Shown here one piece after another: positions 29,520-46,536 of a stretch of DNA of 64,000 nucleotides. The stretch's first letter is position 1. Each line of letters begins with the position of its first letter. Location of the stretch: the NCBI RefSeq assembly GCF_001889405.1, contig NZ_CP017921.1:1874057-1938056 (forward strand). Reading direction: 5' to 3'. The position numbers were made by a program, and so were the translations under genes. Below the pieces are notes generated by a model. The model was not told the origin of the DNA. It ran no database searches and worked only from the letters and a program-made list of their open reading frames with translations. Source of the DNA: Methanohalophilus halophilus (GTDB lineage Archaea; Halobacteriota; Methanosarcinia; Methanosarcinales; Methanosarcinaceae).

Positions 29520-29912
29520 CTCAAACTTTTTTATAAGAGTTTTATATAAAGTTATAGATTTGACACTCTACCTATGCAAGAAAGGCTACAATAATATAAT
29601 TTAATATTATTAAAAAAACTTCTTATATGTCGCATATGTAACTACGAACTAATGCAAGATAGTCCATATGTGCAAAAATGGCCTATTCCCTTGAATCCTA
29701 CTTTTTGACCCATTTTTACCAAAACTGAAAGTTTCGCAAAAAATCAACAACCATATGTGATGAATTCCAACATCTACCCAAACTCCTTCATTCCTATCAA
29801 GGGCATTCATGGTTTTTATAAGAGAAACTACAACTTATACTGGGGATACATATGCCATCCATTCTGGCATAAAGCATCATTGTTCCATCAGCTAAACGAG
29901 AGGGGTTGAACA
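29520..29912. other. 393-base gap between tRNA-Glu and the first kinase gene
   Basis: AT-rich, with no convincing reading frame. It contains the tRNA terminator T-run, two copies of CCATATGTG (29664-29672 and 29751-29759) and further CATATG words, and presumably the promoter of the kinase operon. Confidence 0.6.
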
Positions 29913-30857
29913 GTGGCATCAGAAAGGTATGTAGGAACACTTAATCCGGGCAATATTTTCAGGGACTGGCTGGTCCATGTAGCCGGAGATAGAATTCAGA
30001 ATTCGGATTGCCTGGTGGATGTATTCAAAATGGAGCCTGCCTCCCACACAATTTGCAGATGTAACTTTAAAGATGAAGGATTCAGCTTAGTATGTAAATT
30101 CTTTGCAGAACCTACAGGGAATATAACCCAGTACGATCCATACATGGCAATGCTATATGAATATGAGAATCTCAAAAAAGTTGACAATTTTATCAATGTA
30201 ACAAGACCACTTGCAGTAAACAGCGATTTCAATTGTGTTCTTGTAACGGAATACATCTGTGGAACACCGTTATCCTGGTATTTTGATCATGAAGAAGATC
30301 TTTATGGCCATCTCGAAGCGGTTGCCTGCTTGCTTCAGAAACTCCATCAAAACACCCGCACATATTATGAAAAGAAATATGAATTCGCAATGTTCCACAA
30401 AACACTGGATTACCTGAAGCTGCCTCTTCCTATAAGAGAAGAATATAATCGCCTGCTTGGAATCTGGTGGCATGGGCCCCTTCTTGACATTGACCACGGA
30501 TGCATAACCCATCATGACCCAAACCCGACAAACTACCTCTTTACAGAAGATAAAATCTATGCAATCGACTTTGAACTTTCATATCGTAATTCTAACTTTA
30601 TACATGATCTTGGCATCCTGTGTGCAGAAATCAAGAACCAATTTTCCTTAAAAGGTTCATACAGCAGGGCCGAGTCTTACATAGAACACTTTCTTAGAAA
30701 ATATAGCAGGGACGGAAATGAATTTCACAATATTACACATACCCTACCCTTTTACATGAGTTATGGATTTCTGAGGATCTCGAGGTTGAAATGGACCGAT
30801 GATCATCGCAACTATCTTCTAAAGGAGGCAATGGATTGTTTGAAAGCGGGAGAATAA
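29913..30857 (+). CDS. APH/choline kinase-fold phosphotransferase, copy 1
   Basis: A 314-residue protein kinase-like small-molecule phosphotransferase. The catalytic loop is His-His-Asp-Pro-Asn-Pro-Thr-Asn-Tyr (about residues 199-207, the HxDxxxxN Brenner motif) and the metal-binding motif is Ala-Ile-Asp-Phe-Glu (about 218-222). It starts with GTG preceded by GAGAGGGG. It is clearly paralogous to the gene at 32390 along its full length. The substrate is unknown; the surrounding glycogen and sugar-nucleotide genes make a sugar or sugar alcohol plausible. A HAD phosphatase gene overlaps its end. Confidence 0.8.
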   Translation: MASERYVGTLNPGNIFRDWLVHVAGDRIQNSDCLVDVFKMEPASHTICRCNFKDEGFSLVCKFFAEPTGNITQYDPYMAMLYEYENLKKVDNFINVTRPLAVNSDFNCVLVTEYICGTPLSWYFDHEEDLYGHLEAVACLLQKLHQNTRTYYEKKYEFAMFHKTLDYLKLPLPIREEYNRLLGIWWHGPLLDIDHGCITHHDPNPTNYLFTEDKIYAIDFELSYRNSNFIHDLGILCAEIKNQFSLKGSYSRAESYIEHFLRKYSRDGNEFHNITHTLPFYMSYGFLRISRLKWTDDHRNYLLKEAMDCLKAGE

Positions 30858-31504
30858 AGGGATTGATCTTTGATTGTTACAAAACCCTGATAGATATCGA
30901 CACTGATGAAGATGATGAAAGAACTTATGAGATGCTAAGTGTCTGGCTAAGATACAATGGGGTAAAAATCAAACCTGAAGTATTGAGGGATGAATACAAA
31001 AAAAGGATTCTTGAAAAAATGGATGTTTCGGGCGAGGAGTACCCAGAGGTGAAAGTAGAAGAGATATTTTCCGATATATGCTATGACTACAAACTCTGGA
31101 CAATTGATGAGGAAATGGTTGGGATTGCAGCAGCACGCGTTTTCAGGGCATCTTCCATCAGGAGGTTTGAAGTATATCCCGAAAGTGTCAAGTTACTTGA
31201 AATGTGTACCCACATATCTAAAAAATGCATAATATCCAATGGGCAGAGGGTTTTTTCAGAAATTGAACTTCGCTATCTTGGCCTTTATGATGAATTTGAT
31301 TTTGTGATGTTCTCATCAGATTTTGGATACAAGAAACCCGATAAACGCCTTTTCATGACAGCCCTCAACAAGTTTGGACTTGAGCCGGGAGAAGTGTTAT
31401 CCATAGGAGATACTTTTGAGAACGATATAATCCCGCCCAGAGAAATCGGGATGGAGGCTTTGGAAATAGAAGAAGCCTGGAAATTCTGTGACATATTTAC
31501 TTGA
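30836..31504 (+). CDS. HAD-family hydrolase, copy 1
   Basis: A 222-residue haloacid dehalogenase-fold phosphatase. Motif I is Phe-Asp-Cys-Tyr-Lys-Thr-Leu, where the second acidic residue of typical phosphatases is Tyr, as in the haloacid dehalogenase-like branch. Motif II is Ser-Asn-Gly, motif III lysine is in Gly-Tyr-Lys-Lys-Pro-Asp, and motif IV is Ile-Gly-Asp-Thr-Phe-Glu-Asn-Asp. It starts with TTG behind GGAGG and overlaps the kinase by 22 bases. It is paralogous to 35294-35950. Kinase and phosphatase may act on the same pathway. Confidence 0.82.
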   Translation: MFESGRIKGLIFDCYKTLIDIDTDEDDERTYEMLSVWLRYNGVKIKPEVLRDEYKKRILEKMDVSGEEYPEVKVEEIFSDICYDYKLWTIDEEMVGIAAARVFRASSIRRFEVYPESVKLLEMCTHISKKCIISNGQRVFSEIELRYLGLYDEFDFVMFSSDFGYKKPDKRLFMTALNKFGLEPGEVLSIGDTFENDIIPPREIGMEALEIEEAWKFCDIFT

Positions 31505-31577
31505 AAACCCGGAATACTATAGGAGTTTGGCTATTTGAATTATATTGAAAAACTAGAAAATAAAAGGAGGATATAAG

Positions 31578-31991
31578 ATGGATATCTACAGGAGAAGAAG
31601 GGGAGCTGCAATTGTAGATACAAATGGGGGTATAATAGTTGTTTCACGTGGAGGAGAATGGTTTACACTCCCGGGAGGAAAAGCCAAGAATCGTGAATCA
31701 AGGTCTCAGGCAGCAATGCGGGAACTGAAAGAAGAAACTGATCTTAATGCGCATGATGCCAAATTTCTTTTCAAGCATCTGGGAGGCGTGCATAAATCTG
31801 GTAAAGGCTACTATTTCCAAAACCACAATAAAGTCTTTCTTGTAGAAGCAAAAGGAAAGCCAAGACCAAAAAATGAAATCAACTATGTTGATTACTACAC
31901 TCCGGATTCCGATGTTCAGATATCTTCGACAACACAGGGCATGCTGAAGAAATATTATGAATTCAAGAGATCAAAATGGGATACTCACTGA
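31578..31991 (+). CDS. NUDIX hydrolase
   Basis: A 137-residue NUDIX protein. The NUDIX box runs from Gly-Gly-Lys-Ala-Lys-Asn-Arg-Glu-Ser through Ala-Met-Arg-Glu-Leu-Lys-Glu-Glu-Thr (about residues 34-53), with the Arg-Glu-Leu-x-Glu-Glu core intact, so it should be active. Such enzymes hydrolyse nucleoside diphosphates linked to another moiety; in this cluster an NDP-sugar is a reasonable guess. AGGAGG lies ahead of the ATG. Confidence 0.88.
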   Translation: MDIYRRRRGAAIVDTNGGIIVVSRGGEWFTLPGGKAKNRESRSQAAMRELKEETDLNAHDAKFLFKHLGGVHKSGKGYYFQNHNKVFLVEAKGKPRPKNEINYVDYYTPDSDVQISSTTQGMLKKYYEFKRSKWDTH

Positions 31992-32076
31992 AAATAATTG
32001 AAAACATCTAAATAAGTATTTCTTAGGACAATCTTTATGTTGGTCTATGAAGTGTAAAGGATTGGGGGGGTATAAA

Positions 32077-32331
32077 ATGGTAACATTATTAGGACATGGT
32101 CTGACGAGCAGTGTAAGATATATGCTGGAATCTATGCCAGAGGGTTTTTCCCTAGCCATGAGGGTCTACATGTTGACTCATGAAAGTAATCTGCTTTTTC
32201 ACGGTGTAACAAATTGTGACCAATCACCGGATGGTTATTGGCTGGCGGTTGCCTACTATCAGGATGGGAAACAAGAAGTCCACGTTTTCAGACAGGAAGA
32301 CATCGGGGACATAAGAGTATTTTATGAATGA
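32077..32331 (+). CDS. Small protein, 84 aa, unknown
   Basis: An 84-residue protein lying between the NUDIX gene and the second kinase. The start at 32077 is preferred because GGGGGG lies eight bases upstream. The sequence is compact, with an aromatic C-terminal half (Tyr-Trp-Leu-Ala-Val-Ala-Tyr-Tyr). No membrane segment or metal motif is visible. I do not recognise a family. Confidence 0.6.
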   Translation: MVTLLGHGLTSSVRYMLESMPEGFSLAMRVYMLTHESNLLFHGVTNCDQSPDGYWLAVAYYQDGKQEVHVFRQEDIGDIRVFYE

Positions 32332-32389
32332 ACGCAAGGTAATTACTTTTTTATTTTAATCATTTTGTTTTTGCTTGCAGGTATGTTTG

Positions 32390-33343
32390 ATGTCAGGAAC
32401 ATATGTGAAAAAATTGAAACCCGGTGACCCTTTCAGGGACTGGCTTGTCTACATGCTCAAAGACAGGATTCAGAATAAAAAATGTGTAGTTCGTGTTTTC
32501 CAGTTTTCAGGATCCCACATGGTCCGCAGGTATGAGTTTGAAGGAGAAGGTTTCAGTGTAATGGCCAAGTTTTTTAACAGGCCAATGGGACTAATCAAGA
32601 AATATGATCCAGATAAGGCAATGGTCAATGAATACAAGAAACTCAAAAGAATCAAGCATATAATAGATATATCACGACCTATTGCCATAAACAGGAATTT
32701 TGATTGTGTACTTGTCACAGAATATGTTTCCGGCAGACCGTTATACTGGTACTTCCATCACGAAAATCATCTCTATGACAGCCTGACAGCTGTAGCCCAT
32801 CTTTTAAGAAAACTGCATGATAATACAAAGACCTATTATGATAGAGAAAGAGAATTCAGGATGCTCAAAAAAAACCTGGATCATCTGGGGCTTGACCGTT
32901 CTACAAGAAAAAGGTATAAAAAACTGCTTGACAGTTGGTGGGATTCTCCGTTCCTTGATTTTGGATATGGCTGCATGATCCATCATGATGCAACTCCGGC
33001 AAATTACCTTATTCACAGGGGAAGGAGTTATGCCATAGATTTCGAGCTCTCGGTTCGTCATGGTAATCCCGTACATGACCTTGGCATCCTTTCTGCCGAA
33101 CTCAAGAATTATTTTGCATTAAAGGGGAACGACCAACAAGCTGAACCCTATATAGGCCACTTTTTATGGAATTACAGTAAAAATAAGAAAGAATTTGACC
33201 AAATCACACGCATACTTCCCTTTTACATGAGCTATGGATTGTTGAGGATCGCAAGAGGAAATATGCATCATGGCCACAAGGATTATCTCTTAAAAGAAGC
33301 CGAAAGTTGCCTTTTGACTATTAAGAGACACTCCTGTAACTAA
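32390..33343 (+). CDS. APH/choline kinase-fold phosphotransferase, copy 2
   Basis: About 317 residues, the paralog of 29913-30857. It keeps the Brenner motif His-His-Asp-Ala-Thr-Pro-Ala-Asn-Tyr (about 204-212) and the metal-binding Ile-Asp-Phe-Glu. Both copies share the N-terminal Phe-Arg-Asp-Trp-Leu-Val and the C-terminal Leu-Pro-Phe-Tyr-Met-Ser-Tyr-Gly. The start at 32390 (Met-Ser-Gly-Thr-Tyr) aligns with the other copy and has AGGT upstream. Unlike copy 1, no HAD gene overlaps it; the second HAD gene is 2 kb away. Confidence 0.8.
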   Translation: MSGTYVKKLKPGDPFRDWLVYMLKDRIQNKKCVVRVFQFSGSHMVRRYEFEGEGFSVMAKFFNRPMGLIKKYDPDKAMVNEYKKLKRIKHIIDISRPIAINRNFDCVLVTEYVSGRPLYWYFHHENHLYDSLTAVAHLLRKLHDNTKTYYDREREFRMLKKNLDHLGLDRSTRKRYKKLLDSWWDSPFLDFGYGCMIHHDATPANYLIHRGRSYAIDFELSVRHGNPVHDLGILSAELKNYFALKGNDQQAEPYIGHFLWNYSKNKKEFDQITRILPFYMSYGLLRIARGNMHHGHKDYLLKEAESCLLTIKRHSCN

Positions 33344-33416
33344 TTGATATAATCCCGCCATGTAACTTATAAAGTATTATGGGATTATTCGATAGAATTA
33401 GATTTTGTAAATCCGA

Positions 33417-33632
33417 TTACCTGAGACTTATGGACCATTTGTTTATACTTTTATGTATACTGATCTTATTTTCCCTTGCAAGCCACCCTAATGCCATCAT
33501 GTATGTATTGTTATCGTAGCCGTTCTCCAGAAGATGGTTCTTCAGGTGAGTCATATTGCAGTCTCCCTTCTTAAGCTCATGATAAACAACTCCTGCAGCT
33601 TGTCCTATTTTAGTTCTTCTCTCTTCAGCCAC
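33417..33632 (-). CDS. Winged-helix protein, DUF2582-like
   Basis: A 71-residue single-domain winged-helix protein resembling PF10771 (DUF2582). It has Ile-Gly-Gln-Ala-Ala-Gly-x-Val-Tyr-His and a short wing ending in Trp-Ser-Ile-Ser-Leu-Arg. It starts with GTG behind GGGGGGGAG, 24 bases downstream of the GT4 gene on the same strand, so the two are probably co-transcribed. It may regulate the cluster (inference). Confidence 0.75.
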   Translation of the reverse strand: MAEERRTKIGQAAGVVYHELKKGDCNMTHLKNHLLENGYDNNTYMMALGWLARENKISIHKSINKWSISLR

Positions 33633-33656
33633 ACTCTCCCCCCCTTATGGTTAAAC

Positions 33657-34832
33657 TTAGATTTCCATCGCTCTCCTATAAGTATCAAGAGTATGCTTTG
33701 CAATATTATTCCAATTATACTTCGTCTTGGCCAATTTATTGCCATTGATTCCCATCTGTTTAGTATAAGGACCGTTGAGCCCATCCAGTGCATAATTAAT
33801 TCCCCATGCTACTGACCCTGAATGCCTATAACTGAGAATTCCATTAGAGAAGTTATCAATCAAATTTATGGCATCCGTAGCTACTACAGGCCTGCATGCA
33901 TCCCATGCCTCCAGTACAACTATACCAAAAGGCTCGTTGCGGCTGGGAACACATGCCATTTCGGCTGTATTCATCCAATCTGTCAATACATCTGTTGGGG
34001 CATAGCCTAGAAAATGACAAGAATCTTTTATCCCCATATCATATGCCATCCGCTCACAGTGTGTTCTCATATCACCTTCACCAATAAATACAAAATTAGT
34101 ATCTCTTTCATTGTCAAGTACATGGGGGATAGCATCAACAAGCATATCCGGACCCTTCTGGTAACTCATACGTCCTGTGAAGAGTACTACCGGTGAAGAA
34201 GGATCAATCCCATGTCTTGTTTTGACTTCATCAGGATCGACATCCTTTTCCATCTTTCCGGGATAGATACCGTTTGGCACTAAGGATATTTTATAATCAG
34301 GTACCTTGTAAAGATTTTGGATCTCTTTTTTGAACTGTTCCTGAGTAGCAATTACCTGCGAGGCTTCATACCCACCTTTCCATTCCCTGTGCGATATCTC
34401 ATCTGAACCCCGCCAATTGCCAGGGTAATTTCCATTCCTCCCCCATTCGGTGCTGTGATATGTGAGGACGAAGGGAGATTCATATTTTTTCTTAATCCTG
34501 CATAAAACATTGACTGGATGCCAGTCATGACCATGCAGGATGTCGAAATCACCATAATGATTCTTGAAAGATTTGAACCTGTCGTACATTGAATCACACA
34601 TACTGTTCATCTGGTGAACAATATCTCCGGAACTATCATGATCAACACGCTGGTAATGAACACCATTTATCTCATCATAATCCCTGTAACAGCCTTTACG
34701 CGTGAATACCTGCACTTCATGCCCCATTGAAGCAAGAGTTTCTGCAAGTTCTGTCACATGTGCCGCGATTCCTCCTACTTTTATGGAGTGAAGGCTCTCC
34801 CAGGCAAACATACCAATTCTTAAAGTTTCCAC
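33657..34832 (-). CDS. GT4-family glycosyltransferase, copy 1
   Basis: About 391 residues, GT-B fold family 4 glycosyltransferase related to archaeal glycogen/starch synthase-like proteins. The N-terminal acceptor domain begins with Gly-Met-Phe-Ala-Trp-Glu-Ser-Leu-His and the Gly-Gly-Ile-Ala loop. The C-terminal domain has Gly-Arg-Met-Ser-Tyr-Gln-Lys-Gly-Pro-Asp and the Glu-x7-Glu motif (Glu-Pro-Phe-Gly-Ile-Val-Val-Leu-Glu). I place the start at GTG 34832 behind AAAGGGAG, matching the layout of the paralog at 39016; an ATG at 34859 is also in frame. Confidence 0.85.
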   Translation of the reverse strand: METLRIGMFAWESLHSIKVGGIAAHVTELAETLASMGHEVQVFTRKGCYRDYDEINGVHYQRVDHDSSGDIVHQMNSMCDSMYDRFKSFKNHYGDFDILHGHDWHPVNVLCRIKKKYESPFVLTYHSTEWGRNGNYPGNWRGSDEISHREWKGGYEASQVIATQEQFKKEIQNLYKVPDYKISLVPNGIYPGKMEKDVDPDEVKTRHGIDPSSPVVLFTGRMSYQKGPDMLVDAIPHVLDNERDTNFVFIGEGDMRTHCERMAYDMGIKDSCHFLGYAPTDVLTDWMNTAEMACVPSRNEPFGIVVLEAWDACRPVVATDAINLIDNFSNGILSYRHSGSVAWGINYALDGLNGPYTKQMGINGNKLAKTKYNWNNIAKHTLDTYRRAMEI

Positions 34833-35293
34833 TATTCCCACTCCCTTTGTATTCCCCATTTTACCAATAAAGGTATTTTATGCGATATTGTATTAACAAC
34901 ATTATTAAAGCTTTTGAGAGAAAAAATCTAATTTTATTACAATCTATATATATTAAGACCTATAACAAATAATTGTATTGTATGCAAATATACTAATTGA
35001 GCCTTCCAGTTTAACATATTCAAAGATTCACTTTATGTTTGTGTCAATAAATCAATGAATATATAATTGCCAGATAATGTTTTCACATTTGGAAGGTTAC
35101 AGGCTAATTCTGTAAATATATTTCTTCTCTAAACAAATAATAAATTTCATTAAGTCCTCCCATCTCGCCATATTTCTCAAAACCACAAACCATCCAAATA
35201 TATAAACCTATGTATTTAATATATAATATGGCGACAATCTATATATGTATGTTTACCGTCTCAATCACTAAAAAGGTATGGTGATTATTGAAT
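34833..35293. other. Divergent intergenic region, about 460 bases
   Basis: Very AT-rich, without a convincing gene. It holds TATA-like sequences for both directions: TAATATATATAG near 34950 for the minus-strand GT4 gene and TAATATATAATATGG near 35220 for the plus-strand HAD gene. No clear inverted repeat was noticed. Confidence 0.6.
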
Positions 35294-35950
35294 ATGCTAC
35301 AAAATGGCGAGATAAGAGGATTGGTATTTGATTGCTATAAGACTTTAATTGACATAAAAACAAAGGAAGAAAGCCATAGTACAAATGAAGCGGTAAGTAA
35401 CTGGTTGCGTTACCAGGGAGTAAGTATTTCTGCACAGGATTTCCGGGATGAATATGTGGCCAAGGTCATGTACCGAATCAACCATTCGGAACACGAGCAC
35501 CCTGAAATAAGGGTAGAAGAGATTTTTTCAGAAATCTGCAGGGAAAATGCCATATGGGAAATCGATGACTATTGGCTTGGGATTGAAACCGCGAAAGTAT
35601 TCAGAAATGCGTCAGTAAGACGTATGAGAGCTTATCCTGAAAGTATCCGGTTACTTGAAAAATATAGGCATATGCCAAAATGTATTGTTTCCAATGGACA
35701 GAGAGTTTTCTCCGAACAGGAATTGAAATACCTCGGACTATTCGACCATTTTGATCATGTGATATTCTCTTCAGACTATGGATACAAAAAACCAGACACA
35801 CGTCTCTTCCATGAAGCACTTAATAGATTGGGATGTGCACCAGGGGAAGTCGTGTCCATAGGAGATACTCCAAGAAACGATATCCATGCACCTCAGAGCA
35901 TAGGAATGAAAGCCATTCATGTACATGATGCATGGAAACACCACAGTTAA
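35294..35950 (+). CDS. HAD-family hydrolase, copy 2
   Basis: About 218 residues, the paralog of 30836-31504. Motifs are Phe-Asp-Cys-Tyr-Lys-Thr-Leu (I, with Tyr at the second acidic position), Val-Ser-Asn-Gly (II), Gly-Tyr-Lys-Lys-Pro-Asp (III) and Ile-Gly-Asp-Thr-Pro-Arg-Asn-Asp (IV). The ATG at 35294 aligns exactly with the start of the other copy; a TTG at 35288 behind GGTGATTA is an alternative. The substrate is unknown. It opens the plus-strand run that continues to the debranching enzyme. Confidence 0.82.
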   Translation: MLQNGEIRGLVFDCYKTLIDIKTKEESHSTNEAVSNWLRYQGVSISAQDFRDEYVAKVMYRINHSEHEHPEIRVEEIFSEICRENAIWEIDDYWLGIETAKVFRNASVRRMRAYPESIRLLEKYRHMPKCIVSNGQRVFSEQELKYLGLFDHFDHVIFSSDYGYKKPDTRLFHEALNRLGCAPGEVVSIGDTPRNDIHAPQSIGMKAIHVHDAWKHHS

Positions 35951-36131
35951 AGACTCAGATAGTCGTCTTTCAGGGAAAACCGTCCTTTTTTAATCAGTGC
36001 TGATGATATCAAAACAGCACTCTTTTTTGAAGTATTCCCAAGCTCAAGACCTTGCCATAAAATTATGCCATCATATTACAGAAAAAATTTATTCAGAAAG
36101 ACTGATTATTATCAGAATGGGGTGTGGATGC

Positions 36132-37937
36132 TTGATTGAACACAAGTACATAATAATTGCCGGCGAAGAAGCCGGCCCAAAATCCAATAAAATGGGGGGT
36201 ATCTGGAACGTAATCGATGCCGAAATGAAAACACTGGCTGCAATGCTTGAAGATGGCACGATAGATGAGGAATCCATACCCAGGATATTTGTAGCAGGTC
36301 CATATTTTGACCATAGCGGTGTTGACTGGAACAAGAGCTTGAATCGGATTACAGACCTGAAAGAATTGGATAGTTATGAACCTGACGAGGTAATTAAAAA
36401 CGTCTTTTCAAAACTAGTGGAAGAAGGAATTGAACTCGTTGCCAGATCACAAAAAATCAAAAATATAGAAATTATATTCCTTGCTTTTAAGACCAGTGAC
36501 TATTGCAGAAAAACCATCCAGTATAAAGGAAGACCTACCTGCCTCGAAAATAAGATTAAAGCAGAGGCTTATGACCTGATACAACTTGATTCCAGAACCT
36601 ATGAAAATATGGCTAATGGTAATGAATATACTCATTATCTCAATTTATCCTATGCCATTTCTGAATTTGTACGCAACCTTGTTTGCATAAAAGAAAAAAA
36701 CTTTCAGAAAAAGACTAACAGGGAAGCATCGGAATTTGTAACATCCGTTATGCCAACACGATATGTTTCATTACATTGTCATGAATTCGGACTCTTTTAT
36801 GCCATCGCCAGACTCGAAAAGCTTTGTGTCAGGGTAAATTCAGTTGCTACATGTCATGCAACAATACCTGGCAGGGCGGCAGGACACCGCTCCATCCAAA
36901 AGATAAGGGAAAACGACAATTCACTGGATCCAAATACACCTATAAACATGGCAGAGCTGGAATCCCTATCATCATATGCCGATGTTGTGACTGCAGTGGG
37001 CGATTCCACGCGAAAAGAATTGAAGCTGTTTTATGGCATTGATTCAATAGTGGTACGTAACGGTATCGAACTTGATGCAGAAAAAGAGGAAATTTCATGG
37101 GACAAAAAGAACCGGTGCAGGAAACAGATACAGGATTTCCTCGCAAATAGACTGCATGAAGTACATGATGGTGTCCCTCTTGTTCCTGAAAAAATAATTC
37201 CTATATTTAGTTTATCACGCATTGAAATAGATAACAAAGGTTATCCTGATCTACTTGACTCACTGGTCCTTCTCGACAGAATGATAAGGATGAAAATTGA
37301 ATCCTTACGCCTCGATGAAGATTACAGAATCGTTTGTTTCATTGTAGCTGCCCACGGCCCAAAGAACAATTTACCAAATCATTTTCCCATAGACCTCCCT
37401 GAGGAAATACTGATTGGTTCTGAACTACGTCTGCAAAGCATGATTATGGAAAAAGGACTTGAAGCAGAGCGACTTCTTGGTGGTGATCGGCATGTGGGTG
37501 CAGTATTTTATCCACAATGGCTGTCAAGCAATGATGGTGGCCTGAATATGACAGTAGACGAACTCATGGCAGGCTGCATTGCGGGCATTTTCCCTTCCAG
37601 ATACGAACCTTTCCTGCTGACCGGACTGGAGGCAGGCAAAGAGGCAACCCCCAGTATTGTCAGTAAAGTATGTGGTTTCAGTGACGCCCTTAAAACCCTC
37701 AAGCGTCTGGTTATGGGTATGGGCGGGGTCATCGTAGTTGACAATATCAATCTGCCTTACATCGAGACCCTAGCGGATTACGCACTTACCATGGAATATT
37801 TCATTGAAACCTATACAGATGACCTGCTCAAATATAATCTCCTGTGCAGGGAAGCCAGTCTCCTTGCCCACGATATGAACTGGCAAAAGCCTGTAAAGGA
37901 CTATTATGAAATCCTGACCGGCGATAAAATCGAATAA
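36132..37937 (+). CDS. Glycogen synthase-like glycosyltransferase (eukaryotic GYS/GT3-like)
   Basis: About 601 residues. The N-terminal donor-binding region reads Ala-Gly-Glu-Glu-Ala-Gly-Pro-Lys-Ser-Asn-Lys-Met-Gly-Gly-Ile-Trp, and the C-terminal domain has Tyr-Glu-Pro-Phe-Leu-Leu-Thr-Gly-Leu-Glu, the Glu-x7-Glu signature. It resembles archaeal proteins annotated as glycogen synthase and would extend alpha-1,4-glucan chains from a nucleotide sugar. Starts are uncertain: TTG 36132 (behind GGTG), ATG 36117, or as far up as 35997. The short N-terminus fits relatives best. Confidence 0.8.
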   Translation: MIEHKYIIIAGEEAGPKSNKMGGIWNVIDAEMKTLAAMLEDGTIDEESIPRIFVAGPYFDHSGVDWNKSLNRITDLKELDSYEPDEVIKNVFSKLVEEGIELVARSQKIKNIEIIFLAFKTSDYCRKTIQYKGRPTCLENKIKAEAYDLIQLDSRTYENMANGNEYTHYLNLSYAISEFVRNLVCIKEKNFQKKTNREASEFVTSVMPTRYVSLHCHEFGLFYAIARLEKLCVRVNSVATCHATIPGRAAGHRSIQKIRENDNSLDPNTPINMAELESLSSYADVVTAVGDSTRKELKLFYGIDSIVVRNGIELDAEKEEISWDKKNRCRKQIQDFLANRLHEVHDGVPLVPEKIIPIFSLSRIEIDNKGYPDLLDSLVLLDRMIRMKIESLRLDEDYRIVCFIVAAHGPKNNLPNHFPIDLPEEILIGSELRLQSMIMEKGLEAERLLGGDRHVGAVFYPQWLSSNDGGLNMTVDELMAGCIAGIFPSRYEPFLLTGLEAGKEATPSIVSKVCGFSDALKTLKRLVMGMGGVIVVDNINLPYIETLADYALTMEYFIETYTDDLLKYNLLCREASLLAHDMNWQKPVKDYYEILTGDKIE

Positions 37938-38017
37938 AATTTACTATACGATTTTGTCAACCGCTGATTAAAAATATATAGGATTAGACATCAATTGAAA
38001 TATGGGGTAGCGGGTAT

Positions 38018-38998
38018 ATGTCGCAGATACGCAAGCACTATTTTATGGATGAATATTGCATAATAGCACCAAGGAGAAATAAACGTCCTTCTGATTATGC
38101 AGACAGCATTTTTGAAAAAAAGACTTCAGAATGTGTATTCTGTGAAGGTTATGAAGACAATACACCTCCGGCCACTGCTGTTTATAAGAATGAAGAAATT
38201 TTACAGGACACAGATAACTCCAGAATAAAGAACTGGGGTATAAGGTGTTTTCCTAACCGTTATCCTGCACTTTCCTCAAAATCTGAAAGACCTTCAGATA
38301 CAATATCTACAACAATGGAGGGTTATGGATTCCATGAAGTAATTGTAGAAACACCTAAGCATTCTCATAAGGTTTCTAATTTTTCAGATGATGAAATAAT
38401 GCTTTTCATGAAAGCCTACCAGGACCGTGTAACCTATTATCAATCACTGGAAAAAATAGCTTATGTTTCTCTTTTTAAAAATGAGGGGCAAAAAGCAGGT
38501 GCTTCTATTGCACACGCCCATTCCCAATTAATAGCATTGCCATTTATCCCCCCGGAGCTTAAGAGGGAAGTTGAAGTAATCAAGGCTTCTGAAACCTGCC
38601 CTTACTGCAATATCATAGTGGAAGAATGTGGAGGTCCACGTTTATTATACCATAACGAGGAATTCATAGTTATTGCCCCTTATTTTTCAAAGGTTCCCTA
38701 TGAATTATGGATCCTTCCCCAAAGACACATAAATCACATCTCAGATTTCACCGAAGATATGCTGGGACTTTTGGGAGATGCGATTATTTTTTCCCTTTCA
38801 TCAATAAATAATATTTTAAAAGAAGTGCCCTATAATTACATGTTCTACCAGCTTCAGGATGACCCCAAATACCACTTCAACCTGAGGATACAACCGGTAA
38901 CATCGATTGCAGCTGGTTTTGAAAAAAATACAGGGATCTACATCAATACCATGCCACCTGAAAATGCCGTACAGCAACTAAAAAATAATATAAGTTGA
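38018..38998 (+). CDS. Galactose-1-phosphate uridylyltransferase-like protein
   Basis: A 326-residue HIT-superfamily nucleotidyltransferase of the GalT branch. Zinc-ligand pairs Cys-Val-Phe-Cys (about 39-42) and Cys-Pro-Tyr-Cys are visible, and the catalytic motif is Ala-His-Ala-His-Ser-Gln (GalT uses His-Pro-His-Pro-Gln). A second histidine region is Pro-Gln-Arg-His-Ile. It would exchange a nucleotide between NDP-sugar and sugar-1-phosphate, which could link the cluster's kinases to its glycosyltransferases. It overlaps or abuts the following GT4 gene. Confidence 0.85.
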   Translation: MSQIRKHYFMDEYCIIAPRRNKRPSDYADSIFEKKTSECVFCEGYEDNTPPATAVYKNEEILQDTDNSRIKNWGIRCFPNRYPALSSKSERPSDTISTTMEGYGFHEVIVETPKHSHKVSNFSDDEIMLFMKAYQDRVTYYQSLEKIAYVSLFKNEGQKAGASIAHAHSQLIALPFIPPELKREVEVIKASETCPYCNIIVEECGGPRLLYHNEEFIVIAPYFSKVPYELWILPQRHINHISDFTEDMLGLLGDAIIFSLSSINNILKEVPYNYMFYQLQDDPKYHFNLRIQPVTSIAAGFEKNTGIYINTMPPENAVQQLKNNIS

Positions 38999-39015
38999 TA
39001 GGAAGGAGTATATTG

Positions 39016-40185
39016 GTGGCACTTTTAAAAATCGGTATGTTTGCCTGGGAAAGCCTGCACTCAGTAAAGGTTGGAGGTTTGGCCCCTCATGTTTCAGAGC
39101 TGTCCGAAAATCTTGTTGATCTGGGCCATTCCGTCCACATTTTTACACGTAATAATGATCTTGAGCAACATGAAAAGATAAACGGTGTTCATTACCATCG
39201 TGTTGATCATGATAGTTCCGGGGATATTGTCCACCAGATGGACAGTATGTGCAATAGCATGTATTCCATGTTCCAGGAAGTATCAGGTAGTTACGGAGAT
39301 TTCGATGTCATCCATATACACGACTGGCATCCAGTCAATGTTTTATGCAGGATTAAGAGAAAATATGGCCTACCCTCCATAATCACCTACCACAGCACTG
39401 AATGGGGCAGGAATGGAAATGTATACAGTGGAGGGTATCATTTTGAAGAGATATCGCACAGGGAATGGAAAGGCGGGTATGAAGCCTCACATGTGATTGT
39501 AACGTCTTTGAACTTCAAAAAAGAGATTCAACATCTTTACCAGATCCCCGACTATAAGATATCGGTCATCCCTAATGGCATATCACAGGGAAGAATAAAA
39601 AAGGAAGTTGACCAGGGAAAGATCAAAACGAATTTTGGGTTTCATCCCTTTGCACCTGTGGTTCTTTTTGTAGGACGTATGAGTTACCAGAAGGGGCCGG
39701 ATATGCTTGTGGAGGCAATCCCAAAAATCCTTGAAAGACACTGGAATGTGAGGTTTATGTTTATTGGAGAGGGTGAGATGCGCCCATACTGCGAATCTTC
39801 TGCTAAAGAACACGGTGTTTCAGACTATTGTATCTTTTCGGGATATGCCAGTGATGAAATTCGTAGGGACTGGATCAATGCCTGTGACATCATGTGTGTC
39901 CCCAGCCGCAATGAGCCTTTTGGTATAGTTGTACTGGAGGCATGGGATGCTTGCAAAAACATCGTAGCCACAAAAGCTGTGGATATCATAGACAATTTTG
40001 AAAACGGTGTGCTTGTGCAACAGAACCCGGATTCAATAGCGTGGGGAATAAACTATGTGCTGGATAATGTACATGATGATATAATGGGACGTATGGGACA
40101 CGACTTAATCAATAGTAAATATGAGTGGAAGAATATTGCTAAACAAACAACAGAAATCTATGACAATGTGGTAGAGAAAGAATAA
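39016..40185 (+). CDS. GT4-family glycosyltransferase, copy 2
   Basis: About 389 residues, paralogous to the minus-strand gene at 33657-34832 over its full length. It shares Gly-Met-Phe-Ala-Trp-Glu-Ser-Leu-His-Ser, Val-Asp-His-Asp-Ser-Ser-Gly-Asp-Ile-Val, Gly-Arg-Met-Ser-Tyr-Gln-Lys-Gly-Pro-Asp and the Glu-x7-Glu motif. Start at GTG 39016 behind GGAAGGAG; ATG 38995 would overlap galT. The acceptor and donor are unknown, but a glucan or sugar-lipid product fits the neighbours. Confidence 0.85.
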   Translation: MALLKIGMFAWESLHSVKVGGLAPHVSELSENLVDLGHSVHIFTRNNDLEQHEKINGVHYHRVDHDSSGDIVHQMDSMCNSMYSMFQEVSGSYGDFDVIHIHDWHPVNVLCRIKRKYGLPSIITYHSTEWGRNGNVYSGGYHFEEISHREWKGGYEASHVIVTSLNFKKEIQHLYQIPDYKISVIPNGISQGRIKKEVDQGKIKTNFGFHPFAPVVLFVGRMSYQKGPDMLVEAIPKILERHWNVRFMFIGEGEMRPYCESSAKEHGVSDYCIFSGYASDEIRRDWINACDIMCVPSRNEPFGIVVLEAWDACKNIVATKAVDIIDNFENGVLVQQNPDSIAWGINYVLDNVHDDIMGRMGHDLINSKYEWKNIAKQTTEIYDNVVEKE

Positions 40186-40230
40186 TAAAGTAATATATGA
40201 GTACTGCTATGCAAATAAGGGATTTGGGGG

Positions 40231-41370
40231 ATGAGTGAAATGAAAGCAGTATGTCTTTGCTGTGAGGTACATGTACCTTACGATGTGAAATGGTACTGGC
40301 CGGAAGAAGGTTACTCTAAAGTGGAATTCGAAAACTATTTTGACCAATATAAAATTTATTCCAGGTTCGAGAAGTTCGTCCCGCACATTCTTTCGATTAA
40401 CGAAGCATTGCTGGAATCGATGGACAGGGGAGCTTCATATACATTTGATATCTCAGGTATTTTCCTTGACCAGTGCAGATTACATCCTGCAGTAATTGAT
40501 TCCTTCCGTGACCTCAAAAACAGAGGAGCTGAGTTAGCATGTTCTCCATATTTCCATTCAGTTGCATCCCTTTTCCCTGATAAAATGGAACTCAGGGAAC
40601 AGGTTAAGATGCATAGGATGAAACTAAAAGAATTGTTCAAATATGAACCTAAAACTTTCATCAATTCTGAATTGCTTCTTGCAAAAGATATTTCTCCAAT
40701 AATCAGTCAAATGGGGTTTAAATGCTACATCTCTGAAGGCTCTGAAAACCTTTTGGGTAAAAAGGAACCAGTATACGTTTATGTAAACGATATGCCAACC
40801 CTACTGCGTCATATTGATCTCAGTGAAGATATTGAGGACCGGTTCTCTGATACGGAATGGGTGTGCTATCCACTAATCGCCGATAAATTTGCATCATGGA
40901 TAGCAAATATGGATGGTGATGTCGTAACTCTCTTTTTCAATTATGGTTCTCTAATAAAACATCATAAAAAGCAAGACAATATTATTCGCTTTCTCATAGA
41001 ACTTCCAAAAAGTCTGCAAAAACACGGGATAGAGATGATATTGCCAGAGACAGCAGTCGATACTTTTGGACATGAACCTCTGGAAACACTTAAGACAAAT
41101 GCTACCTCTCGCTATGGTTTACATAATCTGGTGGGCAATCATATACAGCACCTGTATCTCTATGAGTTAATTGATATCGGAAAAATGCTTCATGAAATCA
41201 GGGATTCACCTGGTTACCACGACCTTGTCTACGTATATCGTTGTCTCCAGCAAAGTGAAATCTTGCTGGAAATGGGACCAGAGAATACTCATCTGGGTGC
41301 TGAACGGGCAGTAAACGTTTTTTCCGTAATATCGGACCTCAAGCGTGCAATACTGGAGGAGAAAAAATGA
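40231..41370 (+). CDS. GH57-like protein, probably catalytically inactive
   Basis: A 379-residue homologue of the neighbouring GH57 alpha-amylase with degraded motifs. Motif 1 is His-Val-Pro (residues 14-16) instead of His-Gln-Pro. Motif 2 is Ser-Pro-Tyr-Phe-His-Ser. The nucleophile region Asn-Ser-Glu-Leu-Leu keeps Glu147. Motif 4 is Phe-Phe-Asn-Tyr-Gly-Ser-Leu-Ile, with Asn237 in place of the acid/base Asp and the Glu-Thr-Phe-Gly-Glu-His segment lost. The conserved C-terminal Ser-Asp-His is replaced by Gln-Ser-Glu. It is probably a binding or regulatory partner of the active enzyme, whose ATG overlaps its stop. Confidence 0.8.
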   Translation: MSEMKAVCLCCEVHVPYDVKWYWPEEGYSKVEFENYFDQYKIYSRFEKFVPHILSINEALLESMDRGASYTFDISGIFLDQCRLHPAVIDSFRDLKNRGAELACSPYFHSVASLFPDKMELREQVKMHRMKLKELFKYEPKTFINSELLLAKDISPIISQMGFKCYISEGSENLLGKKEPVYVYVNDMPTLLRHIDLSEDIEDRFSDTEWVCYPLIADKFASWIANMDGDVVTLFFNYGSLIKHHKKQDNIIRFLIELPKSLQKHGIEMILPETAVDTFGHEPLETLKTNATSRYGLHNLVGNHIQHLYLYELIDIGKMLHEIRDSPGYHDLVYVYRCLQQSEILLEMGPENTHLGAERAVNVFSVISDLKRAILEEKK

Positions 41371-42572
41371 AAGCAGTATGCATGTATTTCGAACTTCATC
41401 AACCCTATCGCCTTAAATGGTTCTGGCCAGATCATTCAGAAGGATTCGAAAGATATTTCGATACTGCGATAAACAGGGAAATATTCGAAAAGGTGGCTGA
41501 CAAGTGCTACCTTCCGGCTACAAAAACCATGCTTCAGCTTATCGAACAGTATGAAGGGGATTTCCGCTTTAGTATTTCAGTTACCGGTACACTGTTGAGC
41601 CAGTGCAAAAAATGGAATCCGAAGGTCATAGAACTCTTTCAGGCACTGGCTGATACCGGATGCGTTGAATTTTTGGATGAAACGAATTATCATTCCCTGG
41701 CAGGGCTTTTTGATGACAAGAGCGAATTTATTGAACAGGTTCGTGAGCACCACAAATTGATTTCAGAAACACTGGGTGCAAAACCACTTTTTTTCAGGAA
41801 TACAGAACTGCTCTACAACAACAGTATTGCAAAGACTGTCTCTGAGATGGGATATAGCGGCATACTCATAGAAGGAGTTGATGGGCTTGTAGATACTCCC
41901 AACTATGTCTATAATTCAAAGAATTGTGACCTGAAGGTGTTATTGCGTAATTACAAGATGAGTGATGATATAGGATACCGCTTTTCAGCACGCTGGTGGA
42001 GCGAATACCCTTTAACTGCCAGTAAATGGGCAGATTGGGCCACACATCAGGAAGGAGAAATTCTCAACATCTTCATGGACTATGAAACCTTTGGGGAACA
42101 CCAATGGACAGAAACAGGCATATTTGACTTTCTTCGCGAGCTTCCCGGAGAAGTTTTGGAAAGAAACCTCACATTCCAGACACCTTCAGAAATTATAGGG
42201 AAGTACGACCCTGTGGGCGAAATAGATGTGAAGGATCTCAGTACTATTTCATGGGCAGATATTGAAAGAGATACCAGTGCCTGGTTGGGTAATGATATGC
42301 AAAGGCGGTGTTTCGAGGAGGTCAAATTACTCGAACCCTACGTGAAAAAAACAGGCGACAAAGAACTCATAAAAATATGGAAGCATCTCCTGACATCGGA
42401 CCATTATTATTACATATGTACAAAATGGCTCGGAGATGGTGATGTACATTCTTATTTCAGTATTCATACCTCCCCATATGAAGCAGCCATCAATTTCATG
42501 GCAATAATCAATGACTTCAAATCACAGGTTTTCAAAAACCTTGCCGCCAAGGATAAAAATATCTACACGTAA
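41367..42572 (+). CDS. GH57 alpha-amylase-type glycoside hydrolase
   Basis: A 401-residue GH57 enzyme with all five motifs: His-Gln-Pro (residues 11-13), Glu-Thr-Asn-Tyr-His-Ser, Arg-Asn-Thr-Glu-Leu (nucleophile Glu147), Met-Asp-Tyr-Glu-Thr-Phe-Gly-Glu-His (acid/base Asp238) and Thr-Ser-Asp-His near the C-terminus. It should cleave or transfer alpha-1,4-glucan. There is no signal peptide, so it acts in the cytosol, probably on stored glycogen. It is translationally coupled to the degenerate paralog upstream. Confidence 0.9.
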   Translation: MKAVCMYFELHQPYRLKWFWPDHSEGFERYFDTAINREIFEKVADKCYLPATKTMLQLIEQYEGDFRFSISVTGTLLSQCKKWNPKVIELFQALADTGCVEFLDETNYHSLAGLFDDKSEFIEQVREHHKLISETLGAKPLFFRNTELLYNNSIAKTVSEMGYSGILIEGVDGLVDTPNYVYNSKNCDLKVLLRNYKMSDDIGYRFSARWWSEYPLTASKWADWATHQEGEILNIFMDYETFGEHQWTETGIFDFLRELPGEVLERNLTFQTPSEIIGKYDPVGEIDVKDLSTISWADIERDTSAWLGNDMQRRCFEEVKLLEPYVKKTGDKELIKIWKHLLTSDHYYYICTKWLGDGDVHSYFSIHTSPYEAAINFMAIINDFKSQVFKNLAAKDKNIYT

Positions 42573-42605
42573 GACATATATTCACTCTTTGGAGGAGGAA
42601 TTTGA

Positions 42606-44567
42606 TTGATAAGGCAACCCAATGTCATGGTCGGTAATGAGAAATTACTGGTAACAATGGGCAAGAAAGGGGAATTGGTCACTTTCTTTTATCCTGCCAG
42701 AGATTGGGCACAGCATTTAGTGGATTCACAGGCTTGTATTTATGCCGAAGGGAAGCTTATCTGGTCAAATAATCATGAATGGGCAGTAAAACAGGAATAT
42801 TTAGAAGAAGCAAATATAGTAAATACCGAACTTAAACATCCTACAGATATAAGGATGTCCATTCTGGATTTTGTCCATCCTTCTCTTCCGGTCCTTATCC
42901 GAAAATATGAGATATGCTCCCACAAGAAGTTCCACGGAAAGTTCTTTTATTATTCCAATCTGCGTGTGGGAGATACTCATGAAAAAAATTCTGCATTCTG
43001 TGATGAAAAAGCCAACTTACTGGTGCAGTACAGGCATTCCTGCCATCTGGGAATAACTTCAGTACCCAGGTTCACCCAGTGGCAAGTTGGTAAATCTTCA
43101 GACAGGGTTTGGTGGACCAACGCGAAATATGACATGGAAGACGGACAGCTACAGAACAATCCTGAAGATATTGGAAAACTAAACAATGCAATAGGATGGA
43201 ATCTCGATCTGGAACCTGGAGAGAAAAAAACGATTACGGTATTCCTGGGGGCTGCTTCGGGGAGAAACACACTGTATAAAAGGATGCGTTTTATTTCCAG
43301 TATCCCTATTGAGAAAATGCTGGATAAAACCAAAGAACACTGGTTAAAATGGCTATCAAGAAAAAAGGCAGTACAACTGCCAGAACTTGAAAACCAGCCG
43401 AATTTCCGTAAATCCCTCTATGACATGTACGACAGGGCTTTGCTCTGCCTGAACCTTTTAAGTGATGATGCCAACGGCTCTTTTGTTGCAGCCCCGGAAT
43501 TCGATCACGATTTTGAAATGTGTGGAGGTTATGGTTTTTGCTGGAACCGGGACTCTGCAGAAGTGGTCACTGCCCTGTTGGATGCCTCTTATCCGGATTA
43601 TTGTGCCAGGTTCTTTAAGTGGTGCAAAAGAACCCAGCTTACCGATGGTTCATGGTTCCAGAGATACTGGCTGGATGGAAAGGAAGCACCTTCATGGGGT
43701 AATTTTAAGAGTTCAACCCAGATTGATGAAACGGGATCAACTCTGTTTGCAATCGAAAAATATTATCATATCCTCGAAGGTGTCGAAAAACTCGAATTTT
43801 TGGATGATATGTGGGTCACTGTATTGAGTGGAGCTGAATACCTGATGAAAAGAACTCCAAGCGGGCTACATGAACCCTGCCGAGGATTGTGGGAGACATA
43901 CAAAGGTATTTTCAGTTACACCAATGCATCCATTTATGGAGGCTTAAAGGGAGCTGCCATAATGGCAAAGGATTATGGCGAACCTGAACTTGCCGAGCGT
44001 TGGGATGAGCGTGCCGCACTTATAAAAAAGACCACTATCGAGAAAATGTGGTTAAATGACGGCTATTTTGGAAGGGGAATCATAGACGATGCCCTTGATG
44101 CCACTATGGATGCAAGTATAATCGGCGCTTTTGTCCCTTTTGGGATGCTATCAACTGAAGACCAGAAGGAAAGAGAAATGATCATCTCAATGATCTATAA
44201 GGTAGCCGAAAAACTGAAAGTACCCGTCAATGGATATTTTGGAATCAAACGATTCGAAGATGACAATTACATAGGAGGTAATCCATGGGTTGTCACAACA
44301 CTATGGTTATCCAGGGCAATGCTGACACTTGCAGTTTCGGGACATGTCAAAGCAGAAGAAAGGACCAGACTTATGGATTCGGGCCTTGAATACATAAAAT
44401 GGTCTATAAGAGGCACCACCTGCACCGGTCTATTACCCGAACAAGTAGATAAACATACGGGAAAACCTGCCTGGGCTATCCCCCTAAGCTGGAGCTGTGC
44501 CCTGATGATTACCAACATTCTACTGCTGAACGAATCAATAAATGACGAAACAACTAATGTTGGATAA
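42606..44567 (+). CDS. GH15 glucoamylase-type glycoside hydrolase
   Basis: A 653-residue GH15 family protein. The N-terminal beta-sandwich (1-270) leads into an (alpha/alpha)6 barrel with Cys-Trp-Asn-Arg-Asp-Ser-Ala (substrate-binding Trp/Arg/Asp), Leu-Trp-Glu-Thr-Tyr-Lys-Gly (general acid Glu region) and a C-terminal Leu-Leu-Pro-Glu-Gln-Val (base Glu region). It would release glucose from alpha-glucan ends. It starts at TTG 42606 behind GGAGGAGG. No signal peptide. It overlaps the region of the debranching gene's possible starts. Confidence 0.9.
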   Translation: MIRQPNVMVGNEKLLVTMGKKGELVTFFYPARDWAQHLVDSQACIYAEGKLIWSNNHEWAVKQEYLEEANIVNTELKHPTDIRMSILDFVHPSLPVLIRKYEICSHKKFHGKFFYYSNLRVGDTHEKNSAFCDEKANLLVQYRHSCHLGITSVPRFTQWQVGKSSDRVWWTNAKYDMEDGQLQNNPEDIGKLNNAIGWNLDLEPGEKKTITVFLGAASGRNTLYKRMRFISSIPIEKMLDKTKEHWLKWLSRKKAVQLPELENQPNFRKSLYDMYDRALLCLNLLSDDANGSFVAAPEFDHDFEMCGGYGFCWNRDSAEVVTALLDASYPDYCARFFKWCKRTQLTDGSWFQRYWLDGKEAPSWGNFKSSTQIDETGSTLFAIEKYYHILEGVEKLEFLDDMWVTVLSGAEYLMKRTPSGLHEPCRGLWETYKGIFSYTNASIYGGLKGAAIMAKDYGEPELAERWDERAALIKKTTIEKMWLNDGYFGRGIIDDALDATMDASIIGAFVPFGMLSTEDQKEREMIISMIYKVAEKLKVPVNGYFGIKRFEDDNYIGGNPWVVTTLWLSRAMLTLAVSGHVKAEERTRLMDSGLEYIKWSIRGTTCTGLLPEQVDKHTGKPAWAIPLSWSCALMITNILLLNESINDETTNVG

Positions 44568-44577
44568 GGTAGCTTAT

Positions 44578-46536
44578 ATGCCACTCATTCCCGAACATGA
44601 ACAAAGTTACAAAAATGGAATATCCAGAGAATGGATTGTCACCAACGGTCTGGGTGGCTATGCCTCATCCACTATAATAGGTGCAAATACAAGGAAATAT
44701 CATGGCCTTCTGGTGGCTTCCCTCAATTCACCTGTGGAACGCAAAGTTATACTGTCTAACCTCGATGAGGAACTGGAAGTCAGAGGAAAGACATACCGTC
44801 TTGCCACTCATAAATACCCAAAAACAATCCATCCTGAAGGATTCCTGTATCTGGAAAACTACTCCACTGATCCAGTGCCCACCTTTGACTATTCTACTGG
44901 GGGAGTGAAACTGAAAAAGCAGGTCTTCATGTTACATGGCCTGAATACCACTATAATAAGATATCACATAAGCGCTGAAACAAGTAATACCATTTTCAGG
45001 ATTTTTCCTCTTGTAACCTACCGGGACTTCCATCATGTAAAACGCTCAAAAAATTTCCAATTCAGGCAGTCAACAAGAGATGGAAAGCTTGTAATCAGGA
45101 ATGGGGAGGAAAAATTTGAAATGTTTTGCAAGATGGAGTACAACCCGAAATCTTACTGGTATTACAATTTTGAATACGATATGGACAGGAAGAGAGGTCT
45201 GGCCTTTCAGGAAGACCTATTTAATCCTGGCTATTTTGAAACCCCTGTACATTGTTCAGGAAATATTTTTGATTTTGTTGTATCCACTCCTGAAATTCCC
45301 TCAAATATCGATGTTGAGGAAGAATTCCAGAAAGAACTTTCGAGAAGAAGGGGACTTTGTTCCCCGGTTGGTACTGCTAATCCTTTCGTAAAGAAACTTG
45401 TTCTATCTGCCGATTCTTTTATTGTGGAAAGAAAATCTACCTCATCCGAGTCGGTAATTGCAGGCTATCACTGGTTTGCTGACTGGGGCCGGGATGCGAT
45501 GATCTCCCTTGAAGGGCTTACACTTGTTACAGGCAGATATGACAAAGCCCGTCAGATACTTTCAACTTTTTCAAAATATTGCTTCAAGGGTTTGATTCCC
45601 AACTATTTCCCGGATAGACAAGATGGTGATGCAGGTTATAATACAGTTGATGCTTCTTTATGGTTTGTCCATGCAGTTGGAAGATATTTTGCCTACACAA
45701 AAGATCAGGCTTTTGTCAGCAATATCTGGCCTGTAATTTCTGACATTATTGAAAATTACAGGAAAGGAACTATAAACAATATTCATATGGATTCTGACGG
45801 GTTGATTACCCATGGACCTCAGCTTACGTGGATGGATGCAAAAATTGGTAGTTTAAATGTGACTCCCCGGGAAGGTAAAGCCTGTGAAATTAATGCTTTA
45901 TGGTACAATGCTCTCTGTACAGTTACCTGGCTTGCAAAATCAATTGATGTTCCCTCTTCAGACTATAAGCAGTTAGCTCATCAAATAAAGGAAAACTTTG
46001 CCAAAAAATACTGGAACGCCGACAAATTATGCCTTTATGATTGTATTTTCCCAGAGAATCCAGAAATAAAAGATGCATCTGTAAGACCAAACCAGATATT
46101 TGCAATTTCCCTGCCATTTCCCGTACTTTCTGAAGATAAAGCATTCTATGTACTCCAAAAAGTAGCAGAGGATTTATTCACACCTTATGGCCTGCGCACC
46201 CTTTCAAAGGCTGACAGTAAATATGTGGGAAAATATGAAGGAGATGCAGTAAGTAGGGATAAGGCCTATCATAATGGGACAGTGTGGCCATGGCTGTTTG
46301 GTTTTTTCATCAGTGGTTATTTGAAAGTACATGGAAACTCTGAGAATAACAGACAATATTGCCGCACTCTTTTACTTCGATTTACCGGGCATTTTAATGA
46401 AGCAGGTATTGGTACCGTGTCTGAAGTTTTTGATGGCGACCCTCCACATAATCCCGGTGGTTGTATTTCACAGGCATGGAGTGTAGCGGAAATATTACGG
46501 GCATATGCGGAAGTTATGACGGGAACTCCTCCCTGA
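44578..46536 (+). CDS. Glycogen debranching enzyme (amylo-alpha-1,6-glucosidase type)
   Basis: About 652 residues. The N-terminal domain begins with Glu-Trp-Ile-Val-Thr-Asn-Gly-Leu-Gly-Gly-Tyr-Ala-Ser-Ser, the family signature. The C-terminal (alpha/alpha)6 domain has Trp-Phe-Ala-Asp-Trp-Gly-Arg-Asp and Thr-Trp-Met-Asp-Ala-Lys, where the catalytic Asp residues lie, and His-Asn-Gly-Thr-Val-Trp-Pro-Trp. It would hydrolyse alpha-1,6 branch points. The start at 44578 has AGGT seven bases upstream and gives the usual N-terminal length; ATG 44542 would overlap the GH15 gene. Confidence 0.9.
   Translation: MPLIPEHEQSYKNGISREWIVTNGLGGYASSTIIGANTRKYHGLLVASLNSPVERKVILSNLDEELEVRGKTYRLATHKYPKTIHPEGFLYLENYSTDPVPTFDYSTGGVKLKKQVFMLHGLNTTIIRYHISAETSNTIFRIFPLVTYRDFHHVKRSKNFQFRQSTRDGKLVIRNGEEKFEMFCKMEYNPKSYWYYNFEYDMDRKRGLAFQEDLFNPGYFETPVHCSGNIFDFVVSTPEIPSNIDVEEEFQKELSRRRGLCSPVGTANPFVKKLVLSADSFIVERKSTSSESVIAGYHWFADWGRDAMISLEGLTLVTGRYDKARQILSTFSKYCFKGLIPNYFPDRQDGDAGYNTVDASLWFVHAVGRYFAYTKDQAFVSNIWPVISDIIENYRKGTINNIHMDSDGLITHGPQLTWMDAKIGSLNVTPREGKACEINALWYNALCTVTWLAKSIDVPSSDYKQLAHQIKENFAKKYWNADKLCLYDCIFPENPEIKDASVRPNQIFAISLPFPVLSEDKAFYVLQKVAEDLFTPYGLRTLSKADSKYVGKYEGDAVSRDKAYHNGTVWPWLFGFFISGYLKVHGNSENNRQYCRTLLLRFTGHFNEAGIGTVSEVFDGDPPHNPGGCISQAWSVAEILRAYAEVMTGTPP

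Follow-up and report, generated by a model that had tools for sequence, protein, structure and literature searches.

A kinase–HAD gene pair as a candidate component of storage-glucan metabolism in Methanohalophilus halophilus and other prokaryotes

The glycogen clusters of methanogens, including those of the Methanosarcinales, comprise a GT3 glycogen synthase (GYS), a GT4 glycosyltransferase, GH57 and GH15 glycoside hydrolases and a debranching enzyme (GDE), and have been reviewed in a work that describes archaeal glycogen metabolism and its regulation as mainly unexplored (PMC11046441). Within the genus Methanohalophilus, M. mahii and M. halophilus are the only species for which glycogen genes have been reported (PMC6491703). 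The present analysis concerns a 64,000-nucleotide stretch (the window) of the complete genome (2,022,959 bases) of M. halophilus, a salt-loving methane-producing archaeon, in which positions 29,913 to 46,536 carry such a cluster together with two copies each of genes for an APH-fold kinase (K) and a HAD protein (H). The core gene content and order resemble those of the described clusters, whereas the window differs in holding two K–H copies, a NUDIX gene and a second, antisense GT4 gene.

An APH-like kinase, the maltokinase, also belongs to another glycogen route (PMC2885305), TreS-Mak-GlgE. The likeness extends to the position of an APH-like kinase beside alpha-glucan genes, but K has no match to the maltokinase family and neither GlgE nor TreS is among the genes of the cluster. 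No description of the K–H pair was found in the open-access literature. The presence of K and of a HAD protein lacking the DxD motif beside glucan genes in a methanogen genus, in ANME-1 and in Nitrospirota makes this previously unstudied two-gene unit a candidate, open to assay, for a step missing from storage-glucan metabolism or for its control, and an as yet unproven candidate for a new part of storage-sugar metabolism.

Association of the pair with alpha-glucan genes

Linkage of K–H to alpha-glucan genes was found in at least five lineages, namely Methanohalophilus, one Methanolobus, a Methanofollis-like genus, ANME-1 and Nitrospirota. In the Methanofollis-like genus (g70), the pair closes a run of genes on one strand, at its 3' end, in seven of seven genomes. 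One of these operons (L158) consists of GH57 (3862-5295), GT4 (to 6413), a GT4/5-type glycosyltransferase (to 7651), GDE (7648-9333), K (9323-10267) and H (to 10920), with an 11-nucleotide overlap between GDE and K, and two further loci (L155 and L160) have the order GH57-GT4-K-H. The ANME-1 loci carry GDE directly upstream of K–H, accompanied by the glycogen phosphorylase gene GlgP (L170, L171) or by GH57 and GH15 (L153), and in Nitrospirota GlgP and a GT4/5 gene stand beside the pair (L147, L148). A GT4 gene is located about 30 nucleotides upstream of K in a Methanothrix metagenome-assembled genome. Single-copy GDE directly adjoins K in eight archaeal genomes (G281, G338, G419, G467, G537, G312, G388 and G440), and GH57 is present in every archaeal K-bearing genome tested. 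A rough estimate for chance linkage in about 5 of 18–25 lineages, which rests on our own count of lineages and an assumed 1–3% per lineage, gave a Poisson P of 1e-6 to 1e-3. Within the family, K and GYS also tended to be present together (57/5/31/19; Fisher P 1.3e-4, uncorrected for phylogeny). Once the loci of the Methanofollis-like genus, ANME-1 and Nitrospirota had come to light, the idea that K–H is merely scattered, and hence irrelevant to glycogen, was abandoned.

Comparison within Methanohalophilus separates the pair from the core of the cluster. GT3/GT5 synthase, GT4, GH57 and debranching enzyme genes share one locus in the window, and the same block is found in M. mahii and in a third Methanohalophilus genome (G106). 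The M. mahii locus runs in one direction as H-K-GYS-GalT-GT4-GH57-GH57-GH15-GDE, with a single H (85% identical to window H1), a single K (70% identical to window K2) and a single GT4 orthologous to GT4b of the window; orthologues of K1, the NUDIX gene, GT4a and H2 are absent there, and a tblastn search of the M. mahii region for the NUDIX gene was negative. G106 holds the full core, GYS-GalT-GT4-GH57-GH57-GH15-GDE, with K, H and NUDIX all absent from the cluster. From the complete cluster of G106 and the M. mahii gene order, it follows that the seven-gene core is the ordinary methanogen glycogen cluster and that K–H is an accessory addition, present in two diverged copies in the window.

The diverged gene pairs reported by the first-pass annotation are real, with within-pair identities of 53% for K1/K2, 56% for H1/H2, 59% for GT4a/GT4b and 29% for GH57a/GH57b. 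These pairs differ in age, because all 11 Methanosarcinaceae genomes tested have two GH57 genes while the doubling of K and H is variable. The split between H1 and H2 predates the genus, since H2 resembles a second HAD subtype found in Methanosarcina (62–68% identity) more closely than it does H1 (56%).

Of the 186 genomes of the order, 62 have K and 61 have H, with the same eight genera represented for both, and 91 have GYS homologues, usually placed elsewhere than K–H. K usually lies 5' of H, and the overlap of K1 and H1 noted in the first-pass annotation measures 22 nucleotides, a spacing shared exactly by 14 other Methanosarcinaceae loci, so that it is not a product of chance. A scan of contigs with an alignment, where a scan with the single K2 sequence gave no match, recovered K of about 30% identity in Deltaproteobacteria, Lentisphaerae, Nitrospirota, Chloroflexi and ANME-1, nearly always with an adjoining H. 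Judged by sequence, K–H is an ancient two-gene unit, usually overlapping, of euryarchaea and several bacterial phyla.

The pair also occurs in other settings. In G128 (L054) and G147 (L052) it adjoins genes whose sequences suggest a phytoene synthase and a phytoene desaturase, along with UbiA and a membrane protein of carotenoid type, and the G128 block lies inside a glycogen cluster. A GmhB-like HAD gene flanks K–H in five Chloroflexi loci (L142-L145, L149), mostly with a GHMP kinase gene two genes upstream, a context of heptose-type sugar activation.

Sequence features of the kinase and the HAD protein

Both window kinases, K1 (29913-30857, plus strand) and K2 (32375-33343, plus strand), match the APH family PF01636, at 29.4 and 38.8 bits respectively (cut-off 23.2). 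The catalytic residues K65, E86, H203, D205, N210 and D222, which correspond to the Lys, Glu, HxD, Asn and metal-binding Asp positions, are invariant in A1 and A3, and the HxDxxPxN motif is present in 138 of 148 K sequences. The best PDB fold matches of K were aminoglycoside, methylthioribose and ethanolamine kinases, and the AlphaFold2 model of K2 has a mean predicted local distance difference test score (pLDDT) of 92.5. K therefore shares the fold and all catalytic residues of small-molecule kinases such as APH(3')-Ia, methylthioribose kinase and choline/ethanolamine kinase, but it forms a family of its own, with conserved FRDWLV (in archaea) and AEPYIxHFLW motifs and only 12–17% identity to these enzymes. 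Neither a maltokinase nor a glucokinase model was among the NCBIfam matches of K, and no maltokinase structure was among its PDB matches. The Bud32/KEOPS model did not reach its family score (34.5 bits against a cut-off of 125), and AMPK and DAPK profiles matched weakly, over the N-lobe.

Some copies of K stand alone: five Methanosarcina loci (L059, L063, L065, L068 and L069) have K without an adjoining H, and a Methanotrichaceae metagenome-assembled genome has two K genes in a row with no H beside them (L118, 10–12 kb). Some Methanosarcina metagenome-assembled genomes contain fragmentary K copies with stops. An in-frame TAA recurring in some K matches was read as the ordinary stop codon that ends the match.

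The HAD proteins H1 (30836-31504, plus strand; PF00702/PF13419) and H2 (35288-35950, plus strand; PF00702) both have DCYKT as motif I, and the AlphaFold2 model of H2 (pLDDT 89.9) has the fold of HAD subfamily IA. Among 152 H sequences, motif I is DxY in 121, DxN in 17 and DxD in none (12 unread, 2 misread), while the nucleophilic Asp and motifs II and III are kept. The first-pass annotation had named these proteins HAD phosphatases, but none of the 138 sequences read at motif I has its second Asp, and H is not to be termed a canonical phosphatase. Motif IV is GDT, GDS or GDN in 120 of the 152 sequences, including both window copies (GDT), and GND in 21, mostly bacterial (11 unread). H shares its fold, the DxYxT form of motif I, the SN/SD of motif II and the KP of motif III with subfamily IA proteins of the L-2-haloacid dehalogenase type. 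Haloacid dehalogenases are not known to have an acidic motif IV, whereas archaeal H keeps one (GDTxxND) and many bacterial H have GND.

Possible roles in storage-glucan turnover

The locus is one of storage alpha-glucan (glycogen) metabolism, in which the GT3 synthase and GT4 would build the polymer and GH57, GH15 and GDE would degrade it by hydrolysis. No glycogen phosphorylase was found in the genome of the window, and two ADP-dependent phosphofructokinase/glucokinase family genes lie in tandem, about 40 nucleotides apart, at G000:C1:1094089-1096782. Glycogen breakdown is consequently probably hydrolytic in this organism, which may also phosphorylate glucose without recourse to K. In keeping with the fold of K and its recurrent neighbours, K would be an ATP-dependent enzyme that phosphorylates, most probably, a sugar or malto-oligosaccharide arising from glucan turnover, with H as its translation-coupled partner. 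Because Tyr or Asn replaces the second catalytic Asp of H while its other motifs are kept, H would act either as a slow or specialised phosphoryl hydrolase or transferase, or by holding or sensing the phosphorylated product. A role of K–H in storage-glucan metabolism is likely, and this link is better supported than the class of substrate; to the fuller reading, in which K is a small-molecule kinase of storage-glucan turnover and H its coupled, altered HAD partner, we assign a probability of about 0.5. The scheme of the first-pass annotation, with sugar phosphorylation by the kinases, polymer synthesis by GYS and GT4 and degradation by GH57, GH15 and GDE, is a possible one. A further, unlikely step would make K–H a bipartite unit, not described before, for the control or salvage of storage glucans, common to archaea and several bacterial phyla. 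A kinase dedicated to sugars or oligosaccharides would there pair with a HAD protein which, having lost the phosphatase acid/base, holds, senses or transfers the phosphoryl group, and glucan turnover would thereby be coupled to a phosphorylated signal or intermediate outside the textbook pathway.

Several observations weigh against a dedicated role in glucan turnover. The first-pass annotation had tied the kinase and HAD families to glycogen genes and had taken scattering in relatives as contrary evidence. The tie holds in the five or more lineages described above, but not as an integral part of the cluster, given the full core without K–H in G106; scattering is indeed found in most Methanosarcina, Methanolobus and Methanoculleus loci, where K–H lies far from glycogen genes, and not in the Methanofollis-like genus, ANME-1 or Nitrospirota. 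Among the Methanosarcinaceae K loci retrieved, a glycogen cluster encloses K only in the window, in M. mahii and in a single Methanolobus (G128), the 11 Methanoculleus-like genomes tested (g35) hold K–H and GH57 far apart, and two Deltaproteobacteria (G196 and G197) have K–H while GH57 and GDE were not found in them. Carotenoid-type genes adjoin the pair in G128 and G147, a polyprenyl synthetase gene stands beside it in Methanoculleus, and putative uroporphyrinogen-III-synthase-like (hemD-like) genes recur beside it in Methanosarcinaceae; valS-like, PhoU and GHMP kinase genes, the last with a GmhB-like HAD, make up further contexts. K also need not be the glucokinase, because the genome already has the two ADP-dependent genes, and a role as sole glucokinase was judged unlikely for the same reason. 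This variety of contexts, the Deltaproteobacterial genomes and the cluster of G106 would all suit a mobile kinase/HAD unit of general use on metabolites, whose function lies outside glycogen metabolism, for example in isoprenoid or other small-molecule metabolism, and whose position in glycogen clusters reflects hitchhiking. Independent linkage to alpha-glucan genes in so many lineages and the overlap of K with GDE in one of them argue against such a unit, which we consider somewhat unlikely.

Two other explanations keep the pair within glycogen metabolism and change its chemistry. K and H could form a switch in which a protein kinase and a phosphatase-like protein act on glycogen enzymes, the prokaryotic counterpart of the eukaryotic control of glycogen phosphorylase and synthase, as the weak similarity to Bud32, the weak N-lobe matches to AMPK and DAPK and the adjacency of K–H to glycogen phosphorylase in Nitrospirota might suggest. 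The fold matches of K are, however, led by small-molecule APH enzymes, the HAD protein lacks the phosphatase DxD and the window's genome lacks glycogen phosphorylase, which makes this switch improbable; control of glycogen phosphorylase by K–H in this organism was rejected on the last ground. Still less probable are two separate conventional activities, a K of maltokinase or glucokinase type and an H acting as a sugar-phosphate phosphatase, together forming a futile or scavenging cycle. The precedent of maltokinase and the retention of motifs II, III and IV in archaeal H would fit such a cycle, but the family and structure searches with K returned neither type of kinase model and no maltokinase structure, and DxD is missing from every H read.

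Other genes and the diverged segment

The open reading frames named in the first-pass annotation all lie at the coordinates it gave, and their families were confirmed by Pfam and NCBIfam searches of the translated products, with all cluster families (APH and HAD twice each, NUDIX, GT4 twice, Glycogen_syn, GalP_UDP_transf/HIT-like, GH57 twice, GH15, and GDE_N with GDE_C) scoring above the curated Pfam cut-offs. Between H1 and K2 lie the NUDIX gene (31578-31991, plus strand; PF00293) and an open reading frame of 94 residues with no family assigned to it (32047-32331). The GT4a gene (33657-34859; PF00534/PF13439) reads in the opposite direction, from the minus strand, and the region thus does not form a single operon, contrary to the earlier view of the cluster as a single unit. 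The core then follows on the plus strand, beginning with GYS (35997-37937; PF05693 47.6 bits, cut-off 27), the GalT-like gene (38018-38998) and GT4b (38995-40185; PF00534), the GT4 kept in the M. mahii and G106 clusters. It continues with GH57a (40231-41370; PF03065 165 bits), GH57b (41367-42572; PF03065 274 bits), a GH15 glucoamylase or oligosaccharide amylase gene (42606-44567; PF00723; TIGR01577 764 bits, slightly under its cut-off of 820.7) and the archaeal debranching enzyme gene gde_arch (44542-46536; PF06202 and PF12439; TIGR01561 646 bits, over its cut-off).

The GalT-like protein, a GalP_UDP_transf/HIT-like family member with an HAHSQ active-site motif, had been read as a plain GalT. 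Its best PDB match, over the full length, is 1z84 (At5g18200; E 9.6e-47), whereas E. coli GalT matched at E 7e-15 and the NCBIfam equivalog cut-offs for GalT were not reached (84.1 bits against 448, and 74.1 against 102.1). The Arabidopsis protein At5g18200 (PDB 1Z84/1ZWJ) is known as ADP-glucose phosphorylase. With this full-length best match and the HxHSQ motif in common, the archaeal protein is probably a nucleoside diphosphate (ADP)-glucose phosphorylase-type enzyme, closer to the plant ADP-glucose phosphorylase than to GalT. This reassignment, together with those of the HAD "phosphatase" and of the cluster as a single unit, corrects three earlier readings.

Most of the cluster lies in a segment of about 16 kb (29500-45450, defined by DNA identity profiles of 500 bp and 100 bp) that is diverged from M. 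mahii, while its flanks are 90–97% identical. Identity is 91–96% up to about 29,500, falls to 69–84% or no match as far as about 45,450, and there rises abruptly to 97% inside GDE before continuing at 90–93%. The locus had no relatives in the plasmid collection searched. The sharp break in identity inside GDE suggests that recombination with a diverged donor has replaced most of the cluster, and on the simplest reading the native GYS survives elsewhere. A second, solitary GYS gene is located outside the window at G000:C1:1865012-1866829 (L037 10028-11833), and it is 94% identical to the cluster GYS of M. mahii and 82% identical to the window GYS, which itself has 81% identity to that of the M. 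mahii cluster.

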